From NCBI GenBank assembly GCA_031266335.1, contig JAISBF010000047.1, forward strand, positions 1-33,643: a DNA stretch of 33,643 nt. The letters run 5' to 3'. The notes beneath the pieces were generated by a model. The model made no database searches. It was not told where the DNA came from and was given only the letters and a program-made list of their open reading frames with translations. The translations under genes and the position numbers were made by a program. Below are positions 13,856 through 33,278 of this stretch, in pieces. This stretch comes from Verrucomicrobiales bacterium (GTDB lineage Bacteria; Verrucomicrobiota; Verrucomicrobiia; Methylacidiphilales; JAAUTS01). Position 1 is the first letter of the stretch. Every line of letters starts with the position of its first letter.

Positions 13856-16588
13856 TTAACGCCGGCGCCTCAGCGTCAGCGCGAGGATGACGCCGCCGAG
13901 CAGCAGCAAGACCGCTGAGGATGGTTCGGGGATGAGCATGGTCAGTTGCAGTGCGCCGTTGTCCAAGGCCCATGCGTAAGTGTCCGCCGCGAGGCCGGTG
14001 ACGATGATGTTATCCTGGTCAAACACGCTGCCGAGGGCGTTGTAACCGGTGGCGAACAGCCATGTGTCACCCTCAGCGGGGGAGTAATTGTTGAGGAAGT
14101 TTAGCTCGATGGTAGCGCCGGCGTTGAAGTTCAGCGTGGCGGCGCTGTTGGTGAAGGCCAGCGTGTCGGAGAGGCCGTTGCCGGCGAGGTCAACGGCGAA
14201 CACTGAATCGGCCAGGAAGTTGATGGCGGTCACGTTCGCGCCCAGTGTCAGCGTGCCGATGCCGTCCGGGGTGGCGATGCCGCCCGGCGCGAGCACGCCT
14301 GCGTCGCCGACGGTGATGACGTTATTGCCGGTGTACGCGGCGACACTGCCGATGTTCAGTTGGTTGGCGTTGCCGGAGAAATCCACCTTGCCGTCGCCGC
14401 GCAGTTCCGTGACGGCGACTTTGCTATTGCCGCTGACGGTGACGCCGCCGGTCTGGTCCAGCAGCAGCGCGGCGTTGGCGTTCAGCGCGTTGCTGTGGCT
14501 GACGGTCAGGCTGCCGCTCTGCACCAGCGTGTAGCCGGTGTAACTGTTGGCGACGGTGAGCGTTAAATTTCCGTTGGATGCCATAGCGGCAATGAAGCCG
14601 GGCGACTCATTGTCAGCGACGCTGTTAACGTAGGGAACCGAAATGGTCATGCTGGCGGCACCGCCTTGGATGATGAGCGGCCGCGCGCCGGTGTTGAGCG
14701 TGCCGCTGCCAGTTAACGATAACCTGCCACCGGAGGCGAACATCAATGCGCCGCTGGCCAACGTCAGCGTGGAGTTATTTTGAAAGGCGACATTGGCGTC
14801 CCAATTTGCCAAGCGTAGCGAGTTGATAGTACCGCTGGCCGTGACGGTGCCTTTATTGGTGTTTTGCGCGTTGATGGTGCTCACGTTGGTGGTTGAACCC
14901 AGTGCGCTGATTTCGTCGCCATTGGACACCATCGTATATTCACTGTCCGCGAGTGGCCGGAAGGTGCCGCCGCTGACGGTGACAAAAGTGTTGCCGCTGA
15001 AGTGCGAGGCAGCCCACAGGGTGTTGCCTTGGCCTGGATAACCGGCGATGGCGCCGGCCTGTAACTGGCCGGCCGCCCACGGCAAAATGCCGCCGACCAA
15101 CTGGCTCTCCAATGCCGCCGCGTTCTCCGCGTCACTGATGACGATGGGCGAGCCGGCATTGCCGAACAAAAAGTTTACCGTGGCATCGCCCTCGCGCAGC
15201 AATCTGTCCATCGTCAGCGTGAACACCGTGTTGTTCGCGCCGGCGGTGCCGATGATGCTGCGCCCGGACTTCAGCGTTACGTCGCCGACCTGCTGGCCGG
15301 CCTCGGCGCTGGCGCCGTAGGCGTTGAACACGCCCGACCACAGGTTGATGCTCGCGTCGCGCTCAATCAGGTTGCTCTCGGCGCTGGCGGTGTTGAAGTT
15401 GCTGGCGTTGAGTTGCAGCACCGCGCCGTAGGCGGTGAGGTCGTATCGCGTCGCGCCGGACAGCCGCGCCTGGTCCCAAGCGATACCGGCGGCGGCGACG
15501 ACGATTTGCCCGTTCTTGATGGTGACCGTGCTGTCCTCGGCCATCGTGATGCGGTGTGCGGCGTTGGCGTTATCCACCACCAGCGAGCCGACGCCGTCCT
15601 TGGTCAGCGCGCTGAGATTGGTGGCGGAGACGTTCAAATTCAAGCGGTCAAGACCGACGGCGGCGCTGGTCATCATTGAAGCGGTGGACGGGGTGATATT
15701 GAACACCGCCGCGCCGTCCTGGAAATCCAACTTGGGAGTGGAATAGTTGTTAGCCGTGCCAAGCTCGAAAATCAATCCGTCACCGGCAGCGCCCATGTCC
15801 ACAATGAACGAGAAGGTGCCGCTGGCGGGTGCGAGCGTCCAGTTGAAGTTGGAATTCGCCCCAAGCCGGAAGTGGCTGTTGTCGGCGTTTTGATAAACAA
15901 AGGTGTCGCCGCTGACGGTGTAAGGCGCGTTATCAACGGAGATGTTCCAGTAACCGCCGTTGGGAGCATTGGTGAAAAAGGAATAACCGCTGCCGCTCTT
16001 GCCGGCGGTCTGGCTGACGGTGATGGAGTTGGCGCTGTTAATGGCGGTGACGGTGGCGCCGCCTGTGAAAACGTCGGGTTCACGTGAGTTGATAATTGTT
16101 AGGCCAGGAACGAGATAGTGCGTCGCGTCAATGCTTATGGTGACCACGTCCGAGCCTTCCACAGCGGTGAACATGCCCTGGACTTCCGGGTGCGAGCCGC
16201 GCTGATACGCGCCGATGCCGGTCACGGTCAGCGCCGCGTTGCCGCTGGCGGTGACGGGGGCGCTGACGGTGAGCAGGCCGGCGTTGTTGATGGCGGTGAT
16301 GATGGTGCCGTCGGGAATGCCGTCGCCGGTGACGCGGTCGCCGACCTTGAACTGGCTGGTGTTGACCGTGCCGGTGAAAATGAGGTTGGAGCCGTCGCGG
16401 AGCACCGCGTCCGGGACGCTGACGGTGGTCGCGCCAACTGTGCCGATGAATTGGTTGTTAATCGTGTCACCGAGCCAGAAGTCAGTGTCCGTGTAGGTGG
16501 CGCTATAGTTATAGGCGAATGTCGGCGAGATGACGAACTGTGCACGGGCGCTGACCGTCAGCGCAAGAGATAACACGATGTAAATCAA
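13856..16588 (-). CDS. Autotransporter-repeat-like extracellular protein with C-terminal PEP-CTERM sorting signal; start uncertain (see poly-C tract)
   Basis: C-terminus IPEPSSAVLLLLGGVILALTLRRRR (PEP, hydrophobic segment, Arg cluster); body rich in TVSG/NTL beta-repeat text; hydrophobic leader SLIYIVLSLALTVSARAQF. Confidence 0.88.
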   Translation of the reverse strand: MIYIVLSLALTVSARAQFVISPTFAYNYSATYTDTDFWLGDTINNQFIGTVGATTVSVPDAVLRDGSNLIFTGTVNTSQFKVGDRVTGDGIPDGTIITAINNAGLLTVSAPVTASGNAALTVTGIGAYQRGSHPEVQGMFTAVEGSDVVTISIDATHYLVPGLTIINSREPDVFTGGATVTAINSANSITVSQTAGKSGSGYSFFTNAPNGGYWNISVDNAPYTVSGDTFVYQNADNSHFRLGANSNFNWTLAPASGTFSFIVDMGAAGDGLIFELGTANNYSTPKLDFQDGAAVFNITPSTASMMTSAAVGLDRLNLNVSATNLSALTKDGVGSLVVDNANAAHRITMAEDSTVTIKNGQIVVAAAGIAWDQARLSGATRYDLTAYGAVLQLNASNFNTASAESNLIERDASINLWSGVFNAYGASAEAGQQVGDVTLKSGRSIIGTAGANNTVFTLTMDRLLREGDATVNFLFGNAGSPIVISDAENAAALESQLVGGILPWAAGQLQAGAIAGYPGQGNTLWAASHFSGNTFVTVSGGTFRPLADSEYTMVSNGDEISALGSTTNVSTINAQNTNKGTVTASGTINSLRLANWDANVAFQNNSTLTLASGALMFASGGRLSLTGSGTLNTGARPLIIQGGAASMTISVPYVNSVADNESPGFIAAMASNGNLTLTVANSYTGYTLVQSGSLTVSHSNALNANAALLLDQTGGVTVSGNSKVAVTELRGDGKVDFSGNANQLNIGSVAAYTGNNVITVGDAGVLAPGGIATPDGIGTLTLGANVTAINFLADSVFAVDLAGNGLSDTLAFTNSAATLNFNAGATIELNFLNNYSPAEGDTWLFATGYNALGSVFDQDNIIVTGLAADTYAWALDNGALQLTMLIPEPSSAVLLLLGGVILALTLRRRR

Positions 16589-16604
16589 CGACTTACAAAA
16601 ATGC

Positions 16605-16615
16605 GGGGGGGGGGG
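16605..16615. repeat. Homopolymer G11 (C11 in the coding strand of the PEP-CTERM gene)
   Basis: AATGC-GGGGGGGGGGG-TAAAT read directly. Confidence 0.9.
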
Positions 16616-16847
16616 TAAATTTATTGCCTTTCATAACATAACATTAATTACCTGCTTCTGAGCACATTAACAAGTAAAAAACGCGATTATTTTTTATTTG
16701 GTTGTTTACCCATGGTCAACGGCATGGAGTGTCATGCTCCCGAACGGCTTTAAATTGGCAGCGCAGCCGCGCGGTCAAGTCACTCGGAAGAGTGGCGCTG
16801 GGTGAATTGCGCTAAATGTCCGCCGCTGTCAGTGACCTGCAACGAAA

Positions 16848-16883
16848 ACACCAGCCTTGTCCGGGTGGGGACAAGACTGGTGT
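16848..16883 (-). terminator. Rho-independent-type terminator after the Spy/CpxP-like gene
   Basis: ACACCAGCCTTGTCC-GGGTGG-GGACAAGACTGGTGT, 7+7 bp stem with one mismatch, U4 on the minus strand. Confidence 0.7.
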
Positions 16884-33244: not shown

Positions 33245-33278
33245 CCCTCGCTCCCTCGCTCCCTCGCTCCCTCGCTCT
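33245..33278. repeat. 8-bp microsatellite (CCCTCGCT)x4
   Basis: CCCTCGCTCCCTCGCTCCCTCGCTCCCTCGCTC read directly. Confidence 0.9.

Follow-up and report, generated by a model that had tools for sequence, protein, structure and literature searches.

The window, by which we mean the whole 33,643-nucleotide stretch of DNA that was analysed (contig C94 of a 2.77-Mb metagenome-assembled genome (MAG) of an uncultured Verrucomicrobiales bacterium), carries on its minus strand a gene for a large PEP-CTERM protein whose start codon is separated from the protein body by a run of 11 C residues. The features of the locus, in the direction of transcription, are as follows.

16848..16883 (-): terminator-like hairpin of the upstream gene (scan: 1 found vs. 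0.4 expected)
16653..16673 (-): promoter-like element TTGTTAATG-TGCTCAGAAGCA (-35-like TTG plus dyad TGCTnnnnAGCA), common to most repeat-bearing genes
16645-16650 (-): TAATTA, possible -10, part of the description of the promoter-like element
16632..16634 (-): start codon ATG 5' of the tract (MKGNKF...), placed by its position after the promoter-like element, the same as in other family members
16605..16615 (-): C11 homopolymer, the putative slippage tract, between the start codon and the hydrophobic core of the signal peptide (sequence, frame table, genome-wide bimodal run lengths)
16593..16634 (-): short OFF-phase ORF as assembled, MKGNKFTPPPAFL*, 13 aa (sequence, frame test)
16541..16603 (-): signal-peptide segment after the tract (HFCKSLIYIVLSLALTVSARA, predicted cleavage before QF; homologue alignment, hydropathy)
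13856..16588 (-): 910-aa ORF with an internal TTG start; its mature, beta-strand-rich PEP-CTERM part is at 16540-13859 (profile matches, AlphaFold)
13859..13933 (-): PEP-CTERM sorting signal (IPEPSSAVLLLLGGVILALTLRRRR; TIGR02595, predicted C-terminal helix)

By direct reading, the minus strand runs ...TTATG AAAGGCAATAAATTTA C11 GCATTTTTGTAAGTCGTTGATT..., and the C11 tract starts 19 nt after the ATG at 16634. The chance expectation of a C10 run in the window was 0.07; the tract is longer than chance. A frame test from this ATG showed that C11 leads into MKGNKFTPPPAFL with a TAA after 13 codons and that C9 and C12 lead to a stop after 15-16 aa. C10 and C13 gave proteins of 925 and 926 aa, respectively, with the ON-frame product MKGNKFTPPP(P)HFCKSLIYIVLSLALTVSARAQF... 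and the C-terminal end ...IPEPSSAVLLLLGGVILALTLRRRR. Taken by itself, the long ORF starts at TTG 16588 and encodes 910 aa. The first-pass annotation had stated that the C11 frame ends early at TAA, that C10 or C13 would join the ATG to the signal peptide and the PEP-CTERM protein, and that at C11 the 910-aa ORF has only an internal TTG start; all of this was reproduced and the translations were exact. The C11 length was taken from the metagenome assembly, and homopolymer length in a MAG may be off by one. Since an error of one nucleotide in either direction cannot be excluded without reads, the assignment of the window copy as OFF is only provisional.

In the ON frame, the product has a charged n-region (+4), a hydrophobic core (hydropathy 2.6) and an A-R-A/Q cleavage site; judged by eye and hydropathy, an N-terminal signal peptide is present in this frame only. 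The AQ at the predicted cleavage site was invariant in 14 homologues. The PEP-CTERM profile TIGR02595 matched at 27.8 bits (cut-off 16), and the beta-strand repeat TIGR02601 gave a weak, marginal match. An AlphaFold model built with 18 homologues (pLDDT 81, pTM 0.83) is nearly all beta with a single C-terminal helix at residues 875-893 of the mature protein. The top Foldseek matches were autotransporter passengers (E to 1.5e-7, TM <0.2), which gives class-level support only. Pfam and NCBIfam searches detected no autotransporter translocator barrel; the C-terminus is one helix with the PEP motif. The same genome encodes an EpsH-like exosortase (PF09721, C68:4908-5699, E 7e-47), and one exosortase gene was found in each of the five genus genomes. 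We infer that the product is an exported, exosortase-processed surface protein, its surface location and signal-peptide cleavage being predicted only.

The first-pass annotation had proposed that the genome be searched for comparable tracts in its other PEP-CTERM genes, and the outcome was positive. The MAG contains 11 internal C/G runs of at least 10 nt. Genome-wide, the run lengths are bimodal, with ∼39 runs of 7 nt, ∼8 of 8 nt and three of 9 nt, and then a group at 10-15 nt (one of 10, two of 11, five of 12, one of 14 and two of 15 nt). Nine of the 11 long runs separate the start codon of a large ORF from its mature part, and these ORFs are of one kind; the runs are C runs on contigs C94 (the window), C141, C164 and C184 and G runs on contigs C47, C133, C137 (two) and C146. 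Eight of these nine ORFs were confirmed as PEP-CTERM; the exception, on contig C133, is cut by the contig end. The number of runs expected in the 5' 120 nt of the 63 PEP-CTERM matches was 0.03 (P for 8 of 11 ∼5e-19). The other two long runs are located at the 3' end of a YfhO gene (contig C15) and, as a C10, on contig C187 in a position that is not in a PEP-CTERM gene. Contig C164 begins with a C run of 69 nt next to a family leader; this run was left out of the count because it resembles a low-complexity assembly artefact. The C11 of the window is one of at least ten similar repeats in the genome that are placed immediately before the export signals of proteins predicted to be large surface proteins. 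As a separate observation, the contig C15 run (G12, L009 7825-7836) is in a membrane-protein gene, where a change of one base moves the C-terminus from 782 to 875 aa.

Two congeners, G002 (Verrucomicrobiales bacterium Gx485_bin111) and G003 (Gx481_bin94), have C-run and G-run versions in the same arrangement; sample Gx485 was taken from the gut of Glyptotermes, a drywood termite (PMC11707648). In other paralogues, tandem octamers in 4-15 copies were found between the ATG and the signal peptide, at the spot identical to that of the C/G runs: (GCGGATTG)10 and (GCACTTCG)10 in the genome under study, and (GCAATTCG)n, (GCACTTCG)n and (GCACTTCA)n in the relatives. Because 8 is not a multiple of 3, gain or loss of one octamer shifts the frame between the start codon and the protein body, as does a change of 1 nt in a homopolymer. 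Homologous proteins were found with either repeat type. A G002 gene with C14 and a G003 gene with 11 octamers encode proteins 89% identical over 924 aa; a C12 gene of the genome under study is 77% identical to its octamer homologue in G003, and the window C11 gene is 54% identical to its own. Contracted arrays were seen in two members, one locked in frame (L351) and one out of frame (L330). It is difficult to see how one frame-shifting repeat type could be replaced by another at a single site if selection were not maintaining the switching.

No full-length family members, long tracts or octamers were found in congener G001, and none of the full-length members in G004, in which C/G tracts occur elsewhere, not in PEP-CTERM genes. 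Long C runs are also present in other genera of the order (G009, G015, G037), and none of those examined was in the N-terminus of a PEP-CTERM gene. The link between tracts and PEP-CTERM genes therefore follows the protein family and is not an order-wide habit. Many long C runs and most octamer arrays in G002, G003 and G004 fall within ∼100 nt of contig ends, so the repeat-bearing genes are probably under-counted. Two further loci were noticed. In G003, a G11 run (L133 4039-4049) follows a TTTATACAATGTATA-like leader and precedes an ORF of at least 1345 aa that matches no Pfam family and whose hydrophobic start is pilin-like; this leader type is also found in two G003 PEP-CTERM genes (L130, L132). 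A class I methyltransferase gene carries C8 in the genome under study (L049 1098-1105, contig C3) and C11 in G002 (L125 1987-1997, contig C278) in the same frame, and is possibly another phase-variable locus.

These comparisons bear on two other readings of the tract. It could be an assembly or sequencing error, the true tract being a fixed, in-frame C10 and the gene constitutively on. We regard this as improbable: homopolymers are error-prone in a short-read metagenome assembly and the 69-nt run at one contig end is implausible, but such an error could explain one length, not runs of 10-17 nt that recur at one position across many paralogues and species, and out-of-frame octamer arrays are not prone to errors of plus or minus one. 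Recoding, that is, slippage of RNA polymerase or of the ribosome, would yield some full-length protein from any tract length and leave no genetic switch. Homopolymer runs can cause transcriptional slippage; octamer arrays cannot act in this way, yet homologous proteins use either repeat, and recoding seems to us even less credible than an assembly error.

Alignment of the leaders revealed a common motif, TTG-N6/7-TGCTnnnnAGCA, located 13-18 nt before the first ATG. The exact dyad TGCTnnnnAGCA is present in 20 of 25 SSR-bearing genes, across the C, G and octamer classes, and absent from the other five. Counts of the element vs. a reversed control were 17 vs. 1 in the genome under study, 14 vs. 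3 in G002, 20 vs. 0 in G003 and 2 vs. 2 in G001; a repeat follows within 260 nt for 27 of the 50 elements in the loci examined. The dyad is flanked by a TTGACA-like sequence and an AT-rich hexamer, ∼17 nt apart. A generic sigma-70 scan did not call the element and found no promoter; it is visible only on leader alignment. The element looks like a promoter with an operator in its spacer and almost no 5' leader, although its promoter function is inferred. The terminator-like hairpin of the upstream gene would fit separate transcription of the PEP-CTERM gene, as a unit of its own.

We placed the start codon 5' of the repeat because the promoter-like element sits 13-18 nt before that ATG. Translation could otherwise begin at the internal TTG 16588, leaving the tract untranslated; the TTG frame is open and retains the hydrophobic core. 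The TTG is, however, preceded by no Shine-Dalgarno-like sequence, the n-region charge would be lost, and the spacing of element and upstream ATG holds in all repeat classes, while the G-run and octamer members carry unrelated sequence at the TTG position. We find an internal start very difficult to defend.

Among homopolymer copies, 4 of 17 are in frame from the first ATG (3 of 9 in the genome under study and 1 of 8 in the relatives), compared with about 3 of 7 octamer copies; about one third of copies in frame fits random phase. The tract lengths of nearest homologues differ (C11 vs. C14; C12 vs. C17). The nearest homologue of the window gene, in G002, is 83-84% identical and carries C14; compared with the window gene, it lacks a single T 3' of the tract (GCATTTTG vs. 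GCATTTTTG), and the two genes therefore need different tract lengths to be in frame. The dN/dS ratio of this pair was 0.47 overall and 0.24-0.36 in the first 450 codons. dS between window 13859-16603 and L122 56-2815 forms a mosaic, at ∼0.07-0.12 in codons 1-450 and 0.47 in codons 450-750, and this jump suggests recombination. MutL is present in the genome, so slippage is not enhanced by its loss. Gene decay, with the frameshift as the mark of a pseudogene, might be suspected from the six of nine own homopolymer copies that are out of frame as assembled, but can scarcely be upheld when ∼900 codons contain no other lesion, all frameshifts are at the repeat and dN/dS against the G002 homologue is below 1.

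The explanation that we consider best by far, and hold with high though not complete confidence, is that slipped-strand mispairing causes translational phase variation in a multigene family of surface proteins; switching within the population is inferred from the anatomy of the genes and from comparison. The first-pass annotation had read the single tract as slippage phase variation in a signal-peptide region, and its reading is strengthened by the recurrence of the repeats, the swap with octamers, the unconserved frame, the length differences under constraint and the shared element. The comparative sequences further support widening it from one gene to a predicted phase-variable surface repertoire in three of the five genus genomes. 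On this reading, the C11 tract would switch a contingency locus with phase-variable translation. Transcription would start from the promoter common to the gene family (its function inferred), and with the ATG 13-18 nt past the dyad the mRNA would have little or no 5' leader, so that the ribosome would meet the repeat at once. Replication slippage, at an inferred rate, to an in-frame length (C10 or C13) would allow read-through into the signal peptide, and the ON product, a beta-helix-like protein of 925-926 aa, would be exported. Its PEP-CTERM tail would be processed by the single exosortase (EpsH-like) before surface display, which is likewise inferred. In the other two phases, translation would end a few codons past the tract. 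With the design repeated in no fewer than ten other genes of this genome, as C, G or octamer repeats, each cell may express a random subset of the surface repertoire. The comparison set consisted of one genome per species with no reads, and length variation within a population was not shown; an ON/OFF mixture in the population and a role in adhesion, or in evasion of phage, host or protist, are inferred.

The switch may also be mobile. In the G002 C14/G003 octamer pair, DNA identity was 95% over the first 900 nt of the mature part but only 62% for the leader, 58% for the signal peptide and 43% for the sequence upstream. This pattern and the dS mosaic lend support to the idea that a movable cassette, made up of promoter dyad, repeat and signal peptide, recombines onto mature bodies that are interchangeable, with the joint at the signal-peptidase site. 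We offer it tentatively, as a possibility that we would not yet bet on. If true, one regulator would govern both the random ON/OFF switching and a shuffling of antigens.

A second repeat set was observed in the same genome. About 12 other PEP-CTERM genes have tandem 7-mer or 8-mer arrays ∼155-240 nt 5' of their ATG (L169 1-112; L170 4080-4143; L171 332-395; L172 590-629; L174 5248-5359; L175 1-84; L176 256-367; L177 1-70; L178 200-318; L186 ∼168-216; L014 1-112; and upstream in L276), with most of the heptamer arrays at an almost invariant distance of 157-164 nt. Background rates were taken from a 433-kb sample of the genome, in which such an array preceded 7 of 14 PEP-CTERM genes and no more than 5 of the 328 other genes (Fisher P 2e-8). 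Transcriptional phase variation by these arrays is possible. A (CCCTCGCT)4 array is also present in the window at 33245-33276, and the CCCTCGCT unit occurs again at L181 24-55, upstream of a PEP-CTERM gene.

A 2025 review named the apparent restriction of multi-locus phase-variable genomes to pathogens as a major open question and suspected database bias (PMC11868660). The genus described here is not known as a pathogen, and one congener comes from the Glyptotermes gut. Its genomes hold about a dozen frame-switch loci and the second set with upstream arrays, nearly all on exosortase-sorted surface proteins; they probably practise many-gene random ON/OFF switching of predicted surface proteins, a habit known so far mainly from pathogens. 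Homologues that change repeat type yet keep the frame switch provide natural evidence for selection on switching itself. If confirmed, PEP-CTERM systems would constitute a major phase-variable surface system of host-associated Verrucomicrobiota. In the literature searched, we found no paper tying such repeats to PEP-CTERM proteins. The mechanism is known; the protein class, the phylum, the number of loci, the exchange of repeats and the promoter-like element are new to us.

Several known systems resemble parts of this arrangement. The Haemophilus influenzae HMW adhesin genes have heptamers in their promoters. Neisseria opc has a promoter poly-C (PMC3960869). Both resemble the separate 7/8-mer arrays upstream of other PEP-CTERM genes here, and both act on transcription, whereas repeats of the window type lie in the reading frame. 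In Akkermansia muciniphila, of the same phylum, long C/G runs were proposed for phase variation and 21 PEP-CTERM proteins were counted; the runs named are in capsule-related genes and no PEP-CTERM link was made (PMC3048395). In gut bacteria, PEP-CTERM genes are reported to be enriched among those potentially regulated by an invertible element (PMC11892184), the mechanism there being DNA inversion as opposed to the repeat slippage proposed here. Neisseria NalP and MspA also carry a homopolymeric tract within the coding sequence of a surface autotransporter (PMC3723659); they are type V autotransporters, whereas the proteins here lack a translocator barrel and have a PEP-CTERM helix at the C-terminus. 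The closest parallel is Neisseria Opa, in which paralogous surface-protein genes have a CTCTT repeat in the region coding for the leader peptide and the copy number sets the frame (PMC3960869). The parallel is one of analogy only, with no Opa match in Pfam or NCBIfam, and the mechanism is already known from it: many paralogous surface-protein genes, each with a frame-setting repeat in the leader-peptide region. Opa are outer-membrane proteins that share one pentamer, whereas the family described here consists of PEP-CTERM proteins of a Verrucomicrobiota lineage with interchangeable C, G or octamer repeats and a common promoter-like dyad.
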